Below are positions 18,414 through 60,606 of a DNA stretch of 64,000 nucleotides, one piece after another (within the stretch, counting starts at the first letter, position 1; each line of letters opens with the position of its first letter). A program made the position numbers and the translations under genes. The stretch is from assembly GCF_000982415.1 (NCBI RefSeq), contig NZ_LANI01000001.1:186001-250000 (forward strand), in the 5' to 3' direction. The notes beneath the pieces were generated by a model. That model was not told where the DNA came from. It saw only the letters and a list, made by a program, of their open reading frames with translations, and made no database searches. The DNA comes from Kiloniella litopenaei. GTDB taxonomy: Bacteria; Pseudomonadota; Alphaproteobacteria; Kiloniellales; Kiloniellaceae.

Positions 18414-19241
18414 TTACGCATCAGGCTCCAGATAAAAAGCCGCCTTGTGTATTCGCTCGCTGTAGTAACGGGTGCAAAAGTCTGTTGCCCTTAAGCCGAC
18501 GGTATTTTGTTCTGCCAACGCCGCCAGATCAATTCCATCACTCCCCCATGCAAAGGCATGAAGCCCGCCAACATAGGTCGGGATTGCCGCATGATAGAAC
18601 CCTCCAAAGCCAAACAGAGACAGCATTCGGCCTCGCATATGTTTCAGGATTGAAGGTTGATAAGACGGACATCCTGCCTGCGCAACCATCACTCCGTCTT
18701 TGGTTAGACGGTCTTTGCAGTTTTGGTAAAAATTGTTTGTAAACAGGCTGGTTGAATTATCATCTGGATCGGTGGAATCAATAATAATCGCGTCGTATTG
18801 ATCTTCACAGGAAGCCAAAAACCCTGCCCCATCCCCGATAATCAAATTTAGCCGGGGATCGTCATACGCCCCATCAAGAAGCGTTGCGAAATGATCCCGA
18901 CAAACCTTGATCAGGGCACCATCCAGTTCGACCATTGTCACCTGTTGTACTGTTTTGTGTTTTAGTACTTCGCGCAGGACCGTGCCGTCCCCCGCCCCAA
19001 TAATTAACACGGCTTTTGGGTTTGGGTGAGAAAGCAAAGGGATATGACTAATGCTCTCGCTATAGATCTGCTCATCATGCTCTGTTATCTGAATGGCATC
19101 ATCCAGAACAAGGACCCGTCCCAACAGATCATTAGCAAAAATTTCGACCTGCTGAAAGTCTGTTTTACCTTCGAAGAGCACCTGATCCCGGCGAATTGAT
19201 TGCCGTATCTCAGGATGAATTCCTTCTACGAACCAGGACAT
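18414..19241 (-). CDS. speE: Spermidine synthase (polyamine aminopropyltransferase)
   Basis: A 275-residue protein with the N-terminal beta domain (RRDQVLFEGKTDFQQVEIF, LVLDDAIQITEHDE) and the Rossmann domain with IGAGDGTVLREVLKH. The last is a variant of the usual GGGDGG motif, with Ala for the second Gly. VELDGALI, DGAGFL, IIDSTDPDDNS (catalytic Asp region) and the C-terminal WGSDGID-L segment complete the family pattern. It transfers aminopropyl from decarboxylated S-adenosylmethionine to putrescine, releasing methylthioadenosine, which the mtnN product at 25.3 kb could recycle. A 7-bp inverted repeat at 19257-19278 lies just upstream. Confidence 0.93.
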   Translation of the reverse strand: MSWFVEGIHPEIRQSIRRDQVLFEGKTDFQQVEIFANDLLGRVLVLDDAIQITEHDEQIYSESISHIPLLSHPNPKAVLIIGAGDGTVLREVLKHKTVQQVTMVELDGALIKVCRDHFATLLDGAYDDPRLNLIIGDGAGFLASCEDQYDAIIIDSTDPDDNSTSLFTNNFYQNCKDRLTKDGVMVAQAGCPSYQPSILKHMRGRMLSLFGFGGFYHAAIPTYVGGLHAFAWGSDGIDLAALAEQNTVGLRATDFCTRYYSERIHKAAFYLEPDA

Positions 19242-19349
19242 TTTTCGAGAACTTTCAATAGCTTAAAATATAGCTATTAGTCATAGGCTCTCTAACGGGA
19301 AAAGTCCATGACATTCCCTTTACCCTTCGCTTTATCTCGCCAAATTCCC

Positions 19350-20675
19350 TTATGAAAGCAGGACATCAATGATTTCATTTGCGGCCTGTTGCCCTGTCAG
19401 ATAGGCCCCCGGTGCCATGGTTGCCCATTTGCCGTGCAATGCTTCACCAGCAAAGAATAGTCGTTCGGCCACGGGCCGACGTGCCGTTTCCCTTAGATGG
19501 TTTTTGCCAACATTGGAATAGGCATAGCCCCCGCGTGCAAAGGTATCCGCTAACCATTTTGTTGCATGACCCTTGCGAAAAAGCTTTTTGACATCACTCC
19601 CTAAAACAGATGCAAGTGACGACAACGCAAAGTCCTTTGCGGCCTCTTGGCTATCCGCCGAGATATCCCGCGCCAACTGTCCGCCGACGAACATCGTGCT
19701 CATGGCCTGCCCAAAGGGACACAGAAGGTGACTGTGCCAGCTGTCGATCTGGTTCATCCCTTGTGGTGCTTCGATATAGGCTTCATTGGTATCCGCATCG
19801 GGCACAAGCGATCGAAAGGCCGGATCGAACTGAAGAGTTATTTTATCCAGCACAGCCATCGGCAGTTCATGAAATGCGGCCATTTTGTCCGCTGGTAATG
19901 CCGGTAAGAATTTCAGGGTCTCATCGGCAATGATTTCGGTGGGCACCGTTACCACAACCGCACGACAAGTTATCGTGCCTTGGTTGGTTTGCACCTTGAT
20001 CGTTGGTCCCTGCCAATCAACCTTTTCGACGGTCACACCCAACGTAACCGGCACCGGCCCCAGAGTCTTGAAAATCCCCGCGGCAAAACCTTGCGGTACC
20101 ATCCATTCCGTTCCGGTTTCATACTGTGTTTGGTAATCAATGACCGACAAACGATCAGAATGCACACCGGCTTCAAATGGCCCTTTTCGAAGTTGTGCCA
20201 ACGCATCCCATTTATTTTTAGGTGGACGCAAATCGTGGATGGAAATATCGCCATGGGTAACAGCATCATACGCCCAGAGATCGTCATAGAGCGCATCTTC
20301 TGCCTTCTCGATATCAATGACTTCCTGCGCTGTGGCCCTTCGCCCCGTTTGGTGTCCTGTCTGATTTTCTCGGACAAAATAAATTGGCTCTCTGGCCCCA
20401 AAATCAAAAATATCATATCCCGCCTGATCCCGGATTAGGGGAGACAGGGGATTAACATCAGCAGAATGCAACCATGTACAGCCGTGATCATAGGGTACAC
20501 CAAAGGTTTCCTGTTCCGTATAGGCCCTGCCCCCGATACGATCCCGTGCTTCAAGAACAAGCACCGACACCCCTTGTTGCATTAATGTCCGGGCGGCTGT
20601 CACCCCCGCTATTCCAGCGCCGATGACAATCACATCAGGGTTTGATAGCTCCCCGGTGACTTTATCGTTACCCAT
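19350..20675 (-). CDS. Flavin-containing amine oxidase
   Basis: A 441-residue FAD-dependent amine oxidase. The dinucleotide fold is at the N-terminus ([17 protein letters not shown]), followed by the [11 protein letters not shown] motif, and the C-terminal FAD-binding [28 protein letters not shown] is intact. Such enzymes deaminate monoamines, polyamines or amino acids. The nearby spermidine synthase makes a polyamine substrate plausible but unproven. The ATG at 20675 overlaps the stop of the ArsR gene by 8 bp (ATGGGTAA), so the two are translationally coupled. A TTG further upstream is unlikely. Confidence 0.92.
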
Positions 20676-21375
20676 AATCAAAACTATTCCATTGTTTGAT
20701 ACCCAGCTTTTGGCCAAGTTGTTGGCGACCGAGGTCAGTCAGTTTAATAATTCGGCGATGCCTTGTTCTTTCAATCCATTTCAAATTGAAAGCCAGCAGT
20801 GTTATCGCGGCCCCCAGTGCCCCGGCCACATGTGGCTTGCGCTCACTCCAATCCAGACATTGGGGCGCGAACTGACGTCTTGTTTTTCGTAAAGATCCCA
20901 GATCAATTCCCAGTTCAGCAAAAAACTGCTCTCCCTTCGTCGTTACATTATAGTGACGGTCTTCTATACTGAGGTATCCGTGTGCGACCAACGCTGTCGT
21001 TATTGAAACGCCTAATTCCCCCGCCATATGGTCATAACACAGACGGGCACATCTTATCTGTTTCTGTTCCGATGATGCTTGACGAATTGGTGCAGGTTTG
21101 TGGCGCACCAGATGTATCAAAGGTTCCAGTGCTTCGGCGACGTCTTCCCCCGCCAGCTTATAGTAGCGATGGCGACCATGTTTTTCGCAGACCAGCAAAC
21201 CGCCCGTAACAAGTTTGGACAGATGTTCACTTGCCGTCGCAGCAGAAACACCCGCAGCTTGCGATAATTCTGTCGCGGTCAGCGCCCGTCCATCAAAGAG
21301 TAGCGCCAACATCGCCGAGCGCGCTGGCGATCCGATCAACGCCCCGATAGAGGCCATAGAAGGTTCTGCATCCAT
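20668..21375 (-). CDS. ArsR-family transcriptional regulator (long form)
   Basis: A 235-residue protein. The N-terminal winged helix is clear: [48 protein letters not shown], then the wing [10 protein letters not shown]. The C-terminal half, with [19 protein letters not shown], is typical of the longer ArsR regulators often found beside transporters. The metal-binding ELCVCD motif is absent, so metal sensing is unlikely. It overlaps the amine oxidase gene and faces the EamA exporter at 21461. The natural reading is that it controls both. Confidence 0.9.
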
Positions 21376-54870: not shown

Positions 54871-55833
54871 TTATCCCCCCCTCCGCTGCTCCCAGACCAG
54901 TGATGCTACGGCGATGTCCTGGGCGGCAATGCCCGTCAGGTCGGCGATCGTTATATCATCAGCATTTAATCGTCCCGGTTTCTCTCCGGCCAAGACAAGC
55001 CCCAGTGAAACGGCACGGTCTTGTGAAATTAATCCCTCACGCACTGCATGCCCCAGATCACCGTGATGGACACATTGAGCAAGATCATCGACCATAATAC
55101 CCCGGGCCTGTGCAAACAACGCAGGGTCCAGCTCCTGTTTGCCCGGATTGTCCGTTCCCATGGCGACAATATGGGTACCGGGTTGCACATCATCCTTCAA
55201 GACCAAAGCTTTTGAAGATGGGGTCGTCGTGATGATGAGATTACATTGCCCCAAAAGATGTTTGATCTCTGATGCTATGCTGACATCATAGCCCTGTGTT
55301 GTCATGTCATCGACGTATTGCGCTACCTGTTCAGGGTTGCGCCCATAAACCACGACAGACTTTACCCCCAACAAACGACAGGTCCAATGTGCCTGTAACC
55401 GCGCCTGTTCTCCTGTGCCGATAATTCCCACGGCCGTTACTTTATCCGGTGCCCCGACCTGTGCCGCCAAAGCCCCCGCCGCTGCGGTGCGAATATCCGT
55501 CAACCAGCCTTTGTCGTCCAACACACAGACGGGTGCACCCGTTTGCGCGCTCAGGACCAGCATCAAGCCGCTATTGGGGGACAAGCCAAGCTTGCCGTTA
55601 TCCCGAAAACCGCTTGCGACCTTTACCACAAAGGTATCTGCCCCCTTTTGGTTGCCATACTTGATGTGGCATTCCCCCACGGCCGGATGATCAAGCTGTA
55701 AAATACCCGGCGGCGGCGAATTTACATCGCCACGCCCATGGGAAATGAGGGCTTCTTTTACAGCCGAGAGGATATCATCATCGCGCAAACAGGCTTTGAT
55801 TTCATCAAGGGGTATGATGGGCAATCTGTTCAT
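54871..55833 (-). CDS. Ornithine cyclodeaminase/mu-crystallin-family enzyme
   Basis: A 320-residue NAD(P)-dependent enzyme. The N-terminal part contains CHIKYG and FVVKVASGFRDNGKLGLSPNSGLMLVL. The Rossmann part has GWLTDIRTAAAGALAAQV and VGIIGTGEQARLQ, with VYGRNPEQVAQY and HIVAMGTDNPGKQELDP after it. Family members include ornithine cyclodeaminase, EutC of ectoine use, iminosuccinate reductase (BhcD) and DauB. It is the last gene of a four-gene overlapping operon and overlaps the aminotransferase by 4 bp. Reduction of an imino acid to an amino acid is the most consistent role. Confidence 0.88.
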   Translation of the reverse strand: MNRLPIIPLDEIKACLRDDDILSAVKEALISHGRGDVNSPPPGILQLDHPAVGECHIKYGNQKGADTFVVKVASGFRDNGKLGLSPNSGLMLVLSAQTGAPVCVLDDKGWLTDIRTAAAGALAAQVGAPDKVTAVGIIGTGEQARLQAHWTCRLLGVKSVVVYGRNPEQVAQYVDDMTTQGYDVSIASEIKHLLGQCNLIITTTPSSKALVLKDDVQPGTHIVAMGTDNPGKQELDPALFAQARGIMVDDLAQCVHHGDLGHAVREGLISQDRAVSLGLVLAGEKPGRLNADDITIADLTGIAAQDIAVASLVWEQRRGG

Positions 55834-56954
55834 GTGTTACTCTTGAGATAAGCGCGGAAAGCGGCCAGACCTTCATCAATATTTTTACGACCAAAGCCAA
55901 TCCGAAAACGGTTCCAGCTCACAGGCAACAGATCAGATTTGTAAATGCGTGGCGGCAACAGTAACACGCCAGATTTGTTGATCAGGTCTTCGCAGAAATC
56001 ATCCGTTGTTCCCTTGCCTTTGTAGGCCGGAAAACCGACACAGCCACCATCAGGCACCTGCCAGTCAAACAGGTCCGAAAACTCATCAAAAAATGCCGTC
56101 AACTTGCCCGCGTTCTCTTTGACCAGTTTACGATTATTATCCAGTATCTGTTCACGCGCCCTCAGGGCGATAATGGACAACCACTCGCTCGGCCCGGAAT
56201 TACAAATGGACAGGTAATGTTTGTAACATTCCATCTTTTTCAGAAGATTCCGGTCCTGACAGGCAATCCAGCCGATACGCAAGCCCGGCAGGCCATAAGC
56301 CTTTGACATTACATTTAATGACAGTGCCTTTTCATAAACGTCTGCGGCCTGTGGCAATCGCAAATTCTCTTCACGTTCTACGCCCCGATAAACCTCGTCA
56401 CTGAACAGGTAAATACCATGTGCCCGACAAAGTTCAATCAGGTGATAAAAAGAACTGCGCTTTAGAATAGCGCCCGTAGGGTTATTGGGAAAATTAATGG
56501 AAATAAGCTTTGTATTGGGCCGGATTGCGTCTTTCAGTGCATCCATATCCAGCGACCAGTTATCATCCGGATCAAGGGGAACACCTGTCACGTCACAGAT
56601 ATCAAGCGGCACTGTTTCCGCCGCCTGATAATTGGGCACAACAACAATGGCATGATCACCGGGTTTCAACAGAACCCGCATGGCCACATACACACCTTCC
56701 TCGGCCCCCGCAAAACACAGGATATCTTCCGGTGCCAACCCCGTGTAGCTGTTGGCAATTTCCTGCCTTAACAGGGGGTGCCCAAAGGTTTCTGTATAGC
56801 TTAAGGGCAGATCATAAAACGCGTCACGATCTTCTTCGCTTGCCATTGCCAAAAGCTCATTGATGGTCATGCTTTGAATATCAGATGCCGTCATGTGATA
56901 CCGGGCTTTGAACTCCCAGTCAGAAAAGAAAGTCTCCAGTGAAAAATTACGCAT
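55830..56954 (-). CDS. Class I/II aminotransferase
   Basis: A 374-residue PLP enzyme. LSYTETFGHPLLRQEIANSY leads the cofactor domain; SINFPNNPTGAIL, FSDEVYRGVE and the PLP lysine in SKAYGLPGLRIGW are present, and the substrate Arg is in RFRIGFGRKN at the end. The FxxxWEFxARYHMTASD start is typical of a subgroup found near amino-acid metabolism genes. It overlaps both neighbours in the operon, so it must share a pathway with the dehydratase and the ornithine-cyclodeaminase-family enzyme. Substrate is unknown. Confidence 0.9.
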   Translation of the reverse strand: MRNFSLETFFSDWEFKARYHMTASDIQSMTINELLAMASEEDRDAFYDLPLSYTETFGHPLLRQEIANSYTGLAPEDILCFAGAEEGVYVAMRVLLKPGDHAIVVVPNYQAAETVPLDICDVTGVPLDPDDNWSLDMDALKDAIRPNTKLISINFPNNPTGAILKRSSFYHLIELCRAHGIYLFSDEVYRGVEREENLRLPQAADVYEKALSLNVMSKAYGLPGLRIGWIACQDRNLLKKMECYKHYLSICNSGPSEWLSIIALRAREQILDNNRKLVKENAGKLTAFFDEFSDLFDWQVPDGGCVGFPAYKGKGTTDDFCEDLINKSGVLLLPPRIYKSDLLPVSWNRFRIGFGRKNIDEGLAAFRAYLKSNT

Positions 56955-57951
56955 TTCTTTTCTCTCCCTCTACCGAGTTAAGCACATCACAAAATGTTTC
57001 GTAGCCAATGTTACGTCCACAGATCACAACCGCGATCTTTTTCCCCTGATAATCTCGTCCGGTCTTGAGGGCCGCAGCAACGGCAACACCGGCAGAACCC
57101 TCAATAATAAAGCGTTCATTGGCCGCAACATCGCGCATGGCCTGTGCGATTTCGTCCTCGCTTACCAACTCATGGCGATCAATGACTTTTTGACAAATCG
57201 GAAAGGTAACAGTGCCCTCTTCCACACCACCGGCGGATCCATCGGCAAGGGTATCTGTTTCCCACGCGTCATAAATCTCGCCCTTTTCCAGACAGTGATG
57301 CATCGATGCCGCATTTTCAGCCCAGCAGCCGATAATATCCACATCGGGTAAACGCGATTTGAGATAACTTCCCACGCCGGAAATAAGCCCGCCACCGCCA
57401 ACACAGATATAAACAGCGGCAAGATCGGGGCATTGCGCCGCAAGCTCCAGGCCGATTGTGCCCTGCCCGGCAATGACATCAAGGTCTGCATAGGCAGAGA
57501 CATAGGTAATGCCCTGCTCCGCTGCGGCTTCTCTCGCCGTGTGTTCACTATCCACACAGGTGCCTTTGACCAAAATTGTCTTGGCCCCCATTCGGGTAAT
57601 ATTTTCATGTTTCAGGGGCGAAACTGTATCCGGCAAATAGATCGTGGCCTCAACATTTCCAACACGGGCGGCCTGCGCCGTTGCCATTCCGTGGTTTCCC
57701 GTTGATGCCGTGGTTATCCCCTTTGCACGCTGTTCTTCAGTCAAGGTCAGAACCTTGTTCATGGCCCCACGCATTTTGAAAGAGCCCGTGCGCTGTAGAT
57801 GCTCACCCTTGAGCAAAAAGCTCGCGCCCGTCCGCTCACTAAAAGATGGCGCTTCGTCCAAGGGCGTTTCCCGCACACCGCCATCCACAGCTTTAACACG
57901 CTGATTGGCCGCAATGATTTCATCGACCAGATTACGATCATCTATGATCAT
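56947..57951 (-). CDS. Threonine/serine-dehydratase-like PLP enzyme
   Basis: A 334-residue fold-type II PLP enzyme. ETPLDEAPSFSERTGASFLLKGEHLQRTGSFKMRGA (PLP lysine in SFKMRG) lies at residues 28-63, STGNHGMA follows, and GGGGLISGVGSYLK is the phosphate-binding loop; ENAA and GSAGVAVAA are also visible. It resembles EutB of ectoine use and beta-hydroxyaspartate dehydratase (BhcB) as much as IlvA. It lacks the regulatory ACT domain. The start overlaps the regulator stop (ATGA). Its product would be an enamine/imino acid, matching the reductase encoded at the end of the operon. Confidence 0.9.
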   Translation of the reverse strand: MIIDDRNLVDEIIAANQRVKAVDGGVRETPLDEAPSFSERTGASFLLKGEHLQRTGSFKMRGAMNKVLTLTEEQRAKGITTASTGNHGMATAQAARVGNVEATIYLPDTVSPLKHENITRMGAKTILVKGTCVDSEHTAREAAAEQGITYVSAYADLDVIAGQGTIGLELAAQCPDLAAVYICVGGGGLISGVGSYLKSRLPDVDIIGCWAENAASMHHCLEKGEIYDAWETDTLADGSAGGVEEGTVTFPICQKVIDRHELVSEDEIAQAMRDVAANERFIIEGSAGVAVAAALKTGRDYQGKKIAVVICGRNIGYETFCDVLNSVEGEKRNA

Positions 57952-58592
57952 ACCGATCCCCTCTGTTCTTTTAGATATTTGTAAACGGTGGCACGCCCAA
58001 GCCCCAGACAACGGGCGACATAGTTGGCTGATCCCTGCCCCTGAAAAGCCCCTTTGGTTTCCAGCGCCAAGACCAGATCACGCTTGTCACTTCGGCCAAG
58101 CGCTTGCAGGCTCAACCCCTTTTCCTGCAACCATTCCTGAATAAAAATATTAATCCGCTCATGCCAGTCATCGCGAAAGATTTCTGCAACCTTGTCGCTT
58201 TGCATCCCGCTATCTTCCGTTAATTGGTGGCCTTCTGCCTGCGCCCCGAGCATCATTCCCAGAACCTGATGCATCCGGTTCATGTCCGACATATCCAGAT
58301 TTATGCAGATCATGGCCTCTGCCTGACCGTTGCTATTCCGCATCACAACACTGATCGATTTCAGGACCTTGCCATCCCAGTTCACCTTGCGATAGGGGCC
58401 AAGAACCCGATCACCTTCGGTAAATTCCACCTCGTCCATATGGGACGGGGACCCGATTTCCCGATTGGAATAGTTATTCGCCAGATAAACAATCTCTTGG
58501 CGTTGCAAATCATGTATGACGACTTCGGCATGGGGATACATTAGCGCTGCAACCCCATCTGCCATTGATTTATAATTGTCTAAATTTTCCAT
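57948..58592 (-). CDS. YheO/DauR-type PAS-HTH regulator
   Basis: A 214-residue protein with an N-terminal YheO-like PAS domain (LMYPHAEVVIHDLQRQEIVYLANNYSNREIGSPS in segments) and a C-terminal HTH: GRSDKRDLVLALETKGAFQGQGSANYVARCLGLGRATVYKYLKE. The same architecture occurs in DauR, which controls the D-arginine genes dauBAR in Pseudomonas and is encoded beside an ornithine-cyclodeaminase-family gene. Here it is the first gene of the operon it probably controls. Its ligand is unknown; an amino acid is likely. Confidence 0.92.
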   Translation of the reverse strand: MENLDNYKSMADGVAALMYPHAEVVIHDLQRQEIVYLANNYSNREIGSPSHMDEVEFTEGDRVLGPYRKVNWDGKVLKSISVVMRNSNGQAEAMICINLDMSDMNRMHQVLGMMLGAQAEGHQLTEDSGMQSDKVAEIFRDDWHERINIFIQEWLQEKGLSLQALGRSDKRDLVLALETKGAFQGQGSANYVARCLGLGRATVYKYLKEQRGSV

Positions 58593-58938
58593 AAATAGAC
58601 ATATAGTCCATATTTAGAATGTGAGTCTATACCTATTTTACAAAAAATAAAGCGGCGCAAAAAACACTGGTATTAATTCTTTGGCACCAGTTCTCTGGAG
58701 TTAATTTTGGCAGGACAAAAAACAGGGGACAAAATACGATATAGAATCAATCTACAAGCCCGTCCGGAACCTCGCCGGGATAAACTTTTAAGTTGTGTAA
58801 GTCCAAAATAACAATATACTAATAATACATTGTTATGTGAATCCCTCATAATAACAATCCGTCGGTTCAACCTTCGGCTTCATCATAATTATTTACTGCT
58901 GATCATCCCGATTGGCTGATGGCTGATGGATTTTTTAC
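58593..58938. other. Intergenic region, about 345 bp, with repeated half-sites
   Basis: Divergent spacer between the DauR-type operon and the XRE gene. It contains ATAACAAT at 58808-58815, its inverted partner ATTGTTAT at 58829-58836, and a third AATAACAAT near 58850. These could be operators for either flanking regulator. Confidence 0.45.
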
Positions 58939-59322: not shown

Positions 59323-60024
59323 TTAATCCGAAACTTTTTTCCCAAGCTGCTTGATAATCGCCCCCGTGAAGGTCGTCACCCCTTCTTTTTTGGCAATTTT
59401 CTTGTGGTGCGCAAACAACGTGTTCACAGAAATTCCCAGTGTTTCTGCCATCGCCGCGTTGGATAATTCAGGGTGATTAATCTGTAGTTTCAAGATCTTT
59501 TGCTGTATCGGCGACAGTGTAATATTCTCTCTGCTCAACTGCCGCAACAATGGATGCCCGGGATAAAGCTGTTGGTCCAACTTGTCTGCGGCCAAAGCCA
59601 ACACCCCGGAATACTCGCTGTACAAATTCTCAACGGGTCCCTCGGTTGTCAAAATCAAAGCAGATTTCAAATTAGATCGGCCGGAAAAAACGACAACGCC
59701 ATCCCCCATACCAAAAAATTTCCATAAATTTTCTGCAACTGCGGCCTGCTCTCTACCTACCGAAATAGCGTTCCGTGCCTCGGCAAAGGTATAGCTTCGA
59801 TGCCATTGATGAATAGCGCGTGCTACAGGGCAAAAACGATAAATTTGTGCAGCGTAATAGTGTTCCTGAAACCCTTTGGCGAGATGACCTTCCCAGTTAT
59901 CCATCATCTCTGGGTACCAACGCTGAAAAAACAGACCATTGAACCCCAGATCTATGATCAGATCCTTGGTCTCTCCAGGCGTTTCCGCCTGGAGAATATT
60001 TTGGGCAAATCTAAGCTCTTTCAC
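59323..60024 (-). CDS. LuxR-family regulator with autoinducer-binding-like domain
   Basis: A 233-residue protein with a GTG start and AGGA 10 nt upstream. The N-terminal domain has FNGLFFQRWYPEMMDNW, HYYAAQIYRFCPVARAIHQWHRSYTF and AVAENLWKFFGMGDGVVV, corresponding to the Autoind_bind pattern; the position usually Asp in DPV is Cys here. The C-terminal LuxR HTH reads LSPIQQKILKLQINHPELSNAAMAETLGISVNTLFAHHKKI in segments. It follows a GNAT acyltransferase-fold gene by 9 bp in one operon, so the two may form a signal/receptor-like unit. Confidence 0.88.
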   Translation of the reverse strand: MKELRFAQNILQAETPGETKDLIIDLGFNGLFFQRWYPEMMDNWEGHLAKGFQEHYYAAQIYRFCPVARAIHQWHRSYTFAEARNAISVGREQAAVAENLWKFFGMGDGVVVFSGRSNLKSALILTTEGPVENLYSEYSGVLALAADKLDQQLYPGHPLLRQLSRENITLSPIQQKILKLQINHPELSNAAMAETLGISVNTLFAHHKKIAKKEGVTTFTGAIIKQLGKKVSD

Positions 60025-60033
60025 ACTTAATAT

Positions 60034-60606
60034 TTATCCTTGAGCCTGAGCGTCTTGTACTTGGGCAAAAACATCCGGAAAGGCACGAACAGCCTGTCGC
60101 AAAGTAACTGCGTGTTTCATAGTATCTTCGTTTTTCCTGACCGCCAAAGACAATTTAATCGGGGTATATTCATGACCACGGTAATTCAAAGGCTTTTCCC
60201 CGGTCGGTTTAAAGCCATAAAGCCGCCAGAACCGCATCAATTTAGGATTTTCAACAATACCTAGAACAGTACGCAGGCCCATGAATTCCGTGTACCGCTT
60301 TGCATTTAAGAGCAGGGATCGAAAAATCCAGGGATTTTTCTCTCGGGCATTTTTCTGAACCGCCAACCGTTCCCACATGGCTGTTCCGCCTTCGTCCATG
60401 GAAATGATACGAATGCGCATCGTCCCACAAACCACTCCGTCCCACTTCGCGATCAAATGCACCGAACAAAAATCATTGCCATCAAACTGCTCGTCTTCCG
60501 GTTCACCACCTTCATCCATAAAAACCTCCCGTCTTATGGTATAAGCGAGTTCCAGTTCCTCAAGGCTTTTAACAATAGCGACATCAATAGCAGACTTGGT
60601 CATCAT
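60034..60606 (-). CDS. GNAT-family acyltransferase upstream of a LuxR regulator
   Basis: A 190-residue GNAT protein. ELELAYTIRREVFMDEGGEPEDEQFDGNDFCSVHLIA spans residues 16-52 and the acyl-CoA-binding region is around ERLAVQKNAREKNPWIFRSLLLNAKRY. The N-terminal RREVF-x-x-E-x-G pattern is shared by ElaA-like acetyltransferases and recalls acyl-homoserine-lactone synthases, which have the same fold, but the LuxI signature residues are not all present. ATGs at 60606 and 60603 both follow AGGA. Substrate unknown. Confidence 0.85.
   Translation of the reverse strand: MMTKSAIDVAIVKSLEELELAYTIRREVFMDEGGEPEDEQFDGNDFCSVHLIAKWDGVVCGTMRIRIISMDEGGTAMWERLAVQKNAREKNPWIFRSLLLNAKRYTEFMGLRTVLGIVENPKLMRFWRLYGFKPTGEKPLNYRGHEYTPIKLSLAVRKNEDTMKHAVTLRQAVRAFPDVFAQVQDAQAQG

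Follow-up and report, generated by a model that had tools for sequence, protein, structure and literature searches.

By analyzing a 64,000-nucleotide stretch of the genome of the marine bacterium Kiloniella litopenaei (contig NZ_LANI01000001.1, positions 186,001 to 250,000; hereafter the window), we found a four-gene operon that is conserved and under purifying selection. It encodes a DauR-like regulator (dauR), a fold-II pyridoxal phosphate (PLP) dehydratase (DH), a fold-I PLP enzyme (AT) and a member of the ornithine cyclodeaminase (OCD) family, in this order. We see about an even chance that the operon serves salvage or catabolism under DauR control, with imine chemistry at its core. An earlier reading of the letters of the window (hereafter the original prediction) had described four genes overlapping by 4-8 bp, and this was confirmed, the overlaps being 4 (dauR/DH), 8 (DH/AT) and 4 bp (AT/OCD). 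Pfam domain identification (PAS_6 with HTH_22, PALP, Aminotran_1_2 and OCD_Mu_crystall, every match far above its cut-off) bore out the regulator, dehydratase and OCD labels of that reading, whereas its "aminotransferase" holds at the level of the fold only.

Features of the operon and its upstream region, with positions counted from the first nucleotide of the window.
Feature	Position	Strand	Length	Description and basis
dauR-like regulator	58592-57948	minus	214 aa	YheO-type PAS domain and HTH_22; Pfam PF08348, PF13309
DH	57951-56947	minus	334 aa	fold-II PLP dehydratase, PRK06815 family; NCBIfam NF005292, tree, motifs
AT	56954-55830	minus	374 aa	fold-I PLP enzyme, PRK07324/GntC/VioD group; NCBIfam, alignments, structure comparison
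OCD	55833-54871	minus	320 aa	family of NAD(P)H imino-acid reductases, PRK06823-like; Pfam PF02423, tree, motifs
Candidate DauR operator TGGAC-TATAT-GTCTA	58596-58610	minus		3 bp upstream of the start codon of dauR; kept in both Kiloniella and Aestuariispira
Second, imperfect candidate operator TAGAC-TCACA-TTCTA	58615-58629	minus		19 bp further upstream; one-mismatch pattern scan

The identical four genes were found in identical order at three other Kiloniella loci, with overlaps of 4/8/4 in two of them and a gap in place of the last overlap in the third. Within the genus, the AT proteins of different strains are 92-93% identical to the one studied here, and the ratio of nonsynonymous to synonymous substitution rates (dN/dS) of the operon genes lies between 0.03 and 0.13. 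Aestuariispira insulae also keeps the gene order, with proteins that are 53-72% identical (65% for the DauR-like protein) and flanking DNA that is no longer alignable; dN/dS is 0.08-0.18 in this comparison, a rough figure since dS is near saturation. Conservation of this kind is not a matter of chance. Searched at E<=1e-80, DH was found in five of nine Kiloniella genomes and in none of 32 other relatives.

With 415.8 bits (cut-off 371), DH qualifies for the PRK06815 serine/threonine dehydratase family (NF005292), which is named but for which we found no tested function. DH scores below the cut-offs of two EutB models (278 and 253, cut-off 413 for both), the BhcB model (203, cut-off 550) and, by a wide margin, the NCBIfam cut-off for hydroxyaspartate ammonia-lyase. 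The maximum-likelihood tree placed it in a clade (support 99/98) of dehydratases, many of which adjoin DauR, OCD or AT relatives, and excluded it from the EutB clade (100/100) and the BhcB clade. Its motifs include SFKMR and ASTGNHG, and the substrate loop STGNHG is EutB-like in having Thr before GNHG, where E. coli TdcB has Ala (SAGNHA). Thr or Ser at this position also occurs in racemases, and the closest solved relatives of DH include serine and aspartate racemases. According to searches of the genome, on which all genome-wide statements here are based, there are several other PALP enzymes, one of them with the TdcB-like SAGNHA motif.

For OCD, the nearest NCBIfam family is PRK06823 (330 bits, below the cut-off of 438), while the scores against EutC (231, cut-off 472) and BhcD (167, cut-off 500) are lower still. 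In the maximum-likelihood tree it belongs to a clade (96/97) of reductases adjoining AT genes, outside the EutC clade (100/99), the BhcD clade and the DauB clade (100/100), the last of which comprises DauB and proteins from Klebsiella, Caballeronia, Enterobacter and Pantoea. The nucleotide motifs are GIIGTGEQA and VVVYGRN, the latter with a GR at the end of beta-2 that is missing from BhcD. In this fold, GR at the end of beta-2 is expected for NADPH (the reduced phosphorylated nicotinamide dinucleotide), which suggests that OCD uses this cofactor. Among solved structures, OCD has its nearest relative in an archaeal alanine dehydrogenase, and the genome search yielded one other OCD member only and no match to BhcD. 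The original prediction had proposed a phylogeny against EutB/EutC and BhcB/BhcD, and this placed DH and OCD outside all four clades with good support. Since OCD lies outside the DauB clade as well, the operon is not a known member of these routes, and membership in the beta-hydroxyaspartate cycle, EutBC and DauBAR was rejected on hidden Markov model cut-offs and trees.

The kinship of the putative aminotransferase had been overlooked in the original prediction. The top NCBIfam matches of AT are PRK07324, GntC (235, cut-off 415) and VioD (206, cut-off 391), none of which reaches its cut-off. An AlphaFold2 model of AT (predicted local distance difference test, pLDDT, 90) is closest to 3OP7 (Z 42.7), an uncharacterised structural-genomics protein from Streptococcus suis that has been in the PDB since 2010, followed by the cyclases GntC (41.0) and OrfR (40.4), with ordinary aminotransferases from 37.8 down. 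GntC and OrfR, the nearest characterised structures, are 23-27% identical to AT in structure alignments. K218 of AT aligns with the PLP lysine K219 of GntC, and out of the GntC catalytic residues E9, S25, S26 and K219 (roles of the GntC/OrfR residues from PMC10367076), three are kept as E7, S24 and K218, while the second Ser is replaced by D25. This substitution and that of the guanidinium-pocket His of GntC by Ile are near-universal in the AT clade, which spans proteobacteria, actinomycetes and others, and a guanidino substrate is thus not indicated by the residues. Judged from the predicted structure and the alignments, AT is kin to PLP eliminases and cyclases and not to ordinary aminotransferases, yet it cannot be called a cyclase. 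The AT group is widespread, from Desulfobulbaceae to actinomycetes, but no function assigned to it was found; a scan of viral contigs gave no match to AT. A link to canavanine was considered, as GntC-type chemistry resembles that of canavanine lyase.

The gene neighborhoods of AT relatives were surveyed at 87 sampled loci, which are not independent of each other. In Proteobacteria and Streptomyces, dauR was found beside AT in 40 and OCD in 19 of these loci, far above the chance expectation for genome neighbors. A DauR-AT-OCD arrangement occurs in e.g. Streptomyces, Pseudomonas and rhizobia (Mesorhizobium), and one Mesorhizobium configuration, OCD-AT-RidA, adds a member of the Rid proteins, which hydrolyse imines (PMC5619798). 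DH relatives occur together with OCD, DauR and/or AT relatives in Caballeronia (locus L121) and in loci L175 (DH-OCD-DauR), L178, L037 (AT-DH-OCD) and L177. The Caballeronia locus holds DauR, DH, OCD and an AT relative and, by reading, a binding protein of the basic-amino-acid type and a hydrolase of the M14 type, while in Sulfitobacter an AT relative stands next to a DH-group PLP enzyme. In Pseudomonas aeruginosa, the DauBAR arrangement of which was observed in locus L201, DauA forms iminoarginine and DauB converts it to L-arginine (PMC5619798). In Enterobacter and Pantoea, an AT relative adjoins a DauR gene and a DauB-clade reductase, at the place of the imine-forming DauA; the Enterobacter locus has a lysine/arginine/ornithine (LAO)-binding protein, a desuccinylase-family protein and ast arginine-catabolism genes nearby. 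The common plan of the recurring loci appears to be an imine former beside an OCD-family reductase. No constant third gene was found among the AT-only loci that were read.

Some further neighbors were seen in the same survey. Three DauR-AT loci (L030, L031 and L032) lie beside a gene read by eye as agmatine deiminase, a hint at arginine metabolism, and a gene read as Asp/Glu racemase stands alongside some rhizobial dauR-AT loci. In two regions (L057, 5570-10110, and L011, 11992-14461) an OCD relative adjoins a threonine synthase gene, annotated as such in S. meliloti and identified by eye in L057, where a homoserine-kinase-like gene precedes AT.

Immediately upstream of dauR we found a palindrome of the general form TNGAC-N5-GTCNA, the counterpart of which in the other Kiloniella species and in Aestuariispira is TAGAC-N5-GTCTA, suggesting a candidate DauR operator. 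A one-mismatch scan gave two matches in the window, a number that alone is not significant. The TAGACT element of the second copy aligns across species, and tandem sites were also seen in Streptomyces and Kangiellaceae. GAC-N5-GTC was present at most 150 bp upstream of 28 out of 51 dauR genes, those of Streptomyces and Nonomuraea included, where shuffled sequences lead one to expect 1.7 (maximum 7 in 300 shuffles). When 11 rhizobia and four Kiloniella are omitted, it stands upstream of 13 of the remaining 36 (manual count). The upstream set had been reduced manually and on the basis of k-mer similarity, and the pattern was chosen after the motif had been seen in Kiloniella, so the count is suggestive and no proof. 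The pattern is missing from the DauBAR-type loci of the sample, and shows no significant enrichment upstream of AT genes without a dauR neighbor (3 out of 48). The window DauR leans to the DauBAR/DH half of the DauR tree (94/91), whereas OCD groups with the AT-linked reductases; placed in differently linked groups in this manner, the two make the operon look like a fusion of two modules.

From these data we infer the reactions, the cofactor and the order of steps of a DauR-controlled salvage operon. DH would strip the beta-hydroxyl from a hydroxylated amino acid to give an enamine or imino acid, AT, which is related to enzymes that take a hydroxyl off hydroxyarginine, would deprotonate the same compound or a sister of it at the alpha position and carry out an elimination or a transamination, and OCD would capture the imino acid with NADPH, giving an ordinary L-amino acid. 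DauR would bind an amino-acid signal, i.e. the substrate, and act at the palindrome before its own gene. Our guess is that the substrate may be a hydroxylated basic amino acid of the hydroxyarginine or hydroxyornithine kind; such compounds are ranked first because of the GntC/OrfR kinship of AT and the arginine-related neighbors of the sister loci. The original prediction had suggested a route for a beta-hydroxy or D-amino acid via an imino acid. It is partly supported: a dehydratase-type PLP enzyme passing an imino acid to an OCD-family reductase under DauR fits the anatomy and the repeated co-occurrence of these families, while the beta-hydroxy or D-amino acid is a proposed substrate.

Several observations weigh against this salvage reading. 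The complete four-gene set was found in Kiloniella and Aestuariispira only, with DH in little more than half of the Kiloniella genomes, and no transporter or downstream catabolic gene adjoins the operon in the window. The Ser to Asp and His to Ile replacements in the AT clade, described above, count in the same direction. Furthermore, about half of the sampled AT loci have no dauR neighbor, and AT may therefore have an independent role.

Other explanations were weighed against the same evidence. That DH and OCD replace EutBC, turning 3-hydroxy-2,4-diaminobutyrate (from hydroxyectoine) into diaminobutyrate and thereby completing an ectoine cluster on another contig, C24, seems unlikely to us. 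According to the original prediction ectoine hydrolases are absent, which is true of the window but not of the genome, where one (702 bits, cut-off 613) is encoded on C24, away from the operon. The C24 cluster (L212, 4813-10833) contains, by reading, an M20 deacetylase, an Lrp/DoeX-like regulator, an aldehyde dehydrogenase and a class-III aminotransferase, the M20-family deacetylase gene being at the usual doeB place, and neither eutB nor eutC was seen in it. This vacancy, the presence of just one other OCD member in the genome and the trees, in which DH is of sister type to EutB and OCD to EutC, speak for a replacement. However, both enzymes fall outside the EutB and EutC clades, and the route has no role for AT. 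Co-occurrence with the hydrolase, used as a test of the replacement, showed it to be weak, since DH does not track the hydrolase in other genomes: no match to ectoine hydrolase at E<=1e-80 was found in the DH carriers G467, G589, G490, G487 and G122, whereas K. laminariae and Denitrobaculum have the hydrolase but no DH relative beside AT (at the same threshold Denitrobaculum, G257, has no DH at all). The original prediction had named EutBC grouping and a complete eut cluster elsewhere as evidence against itself. This holds by half: an ectoine-degradation cluster exists elsewhere in the genome, but with no eutB/eutC seen, and DH and OCD do not group with EutBC.

We hold it similarly improbable that the operon serves a DauBAR-like D-amino-acid or racemisation route, where DH would be a serine/aspartate-type racemase or a D-amino acid lyase and OCD would make the L form. 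No open reading frame of the operon encodes a dehydrogenase of the DauA kind, dependent on flavin adenine dinucleotide (FAD), OCD does not belong to the DauB clade, and most loci pair OCD with GntC-like PLP enzymes and not with racemases, although the DauR-type regulator, the solved racemases close to DH, the Thr/Ser before GNHG and the racemase gene at some rhizobial loci are in line with it.

Ordinary Ser/Thr deamination, with DH as a catabolic dehydratase, AT as a general aminotransferase and OCD as an alanine or 2-aminobutyrate dehydrogenase, all merely co-regulated, is no less doubtful. The annotation of PRK06815 as a threonine/serine dehydratase agrees with it, as does the archaeal alanine dehydrogenase nearest to OCD, and the fold permits such a function; but besides DH the genome encodes several PALP enzymes, the TdcB-like one among them, AT has closer kin in GntC/OrfR than in general aminotransferases, and DauR would be an unusual choice of regulator for this role. 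It is highly improbable that the operon runs a modified beta-hydroxyaspartate cycle in which DH is the dehydratase and OCD an iminosuccinate reductase, since apart from the BhcB-BhcD type of enzyme pair this reading meets with separate clades, scores far below both cut-offs, a genome without a BhcD match and a window cluster without the aldolase.

The enzyme families and the type of module are already known, but in the open-licence papers we found no description of such an operon, its distribution or the candidate operator. Thanks to its conserved partners and the candidate operator, the role of the GntC-like AT can be tested directly, and this role would tie the annotated-only families PRK06815, PRK06823 and PRK07324 to one chemistry. 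More speculatively, and with a rather small probability in our judgment, the operon may stand for a way of breaking down hydroxylated basic amino acids (hydroxyarginine, hydroxyornithine or capreomycidine-type compounds) that has not been described before. Two PLP enzymes unrelated to each other would supply a single NADPH-dependent imine reductase, and control would lie with a branch of DauR that has a conserved operator of its own. The operon would then share one general plan with DauBAR and EutBC, in which an imine-forming enzyme is paired with an imine reductase of the OCD family.

Two other gene pairs were seen in the window. Just upstream of the operon (59323-60606), a LuxR-type regulator adjoins a GNAT-like gene, possibly a quorum-sensing-like pair, and spermidine-synthase-like and flavin amine-oxidase-like genes are adjacent at 18414-20717.

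Lastly, the operon can be set beside the systems that it resembles. AT shares with the hydroxyarginine cyclases GntC, OrfR and VioD the fold, the PLP lysine, the N-terminal Glu (E7) and one Ser (S24), but differs in the second Ser, the pocket His and its scores under the family cut-offs; no arginine hydroxylase or peptide-synthesis gene was seen near the operon. With the beta-hydroxyaspartate cycle (BhcABCD) it has in common a dehydratase and an OCD-family imine reductase, although of separate clades and, for the reductase, with a GR that BhcD lacks. The original prediction was right that the aldolase of that cycle is absent here: neither BhcC nor the BhcA transaminase is among the four operon genes, the rest of the genome not having been searched for them. 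The likeness to EutB/EutC extends to a fold-II dehydratase and an OCD-family reductase encoded by overlapping genes in one operon, the Arg at the end of beta-2 and the STGNHG loop, but the clades are again separate, and the Kiloniella operon has no adjoining eutA, doeA or doeB and possesses a fold-I PLP enzyme and DauR. While it contains two PLP enzymes in place of the FAD dehydrogenase DauA, and its OCD is not of the DauB clade, it shares with DauBAR, the D-arginine system of P. aeruginosa, a DauR-type regulator together with an OCD-family reductase of an imino or keto acid.

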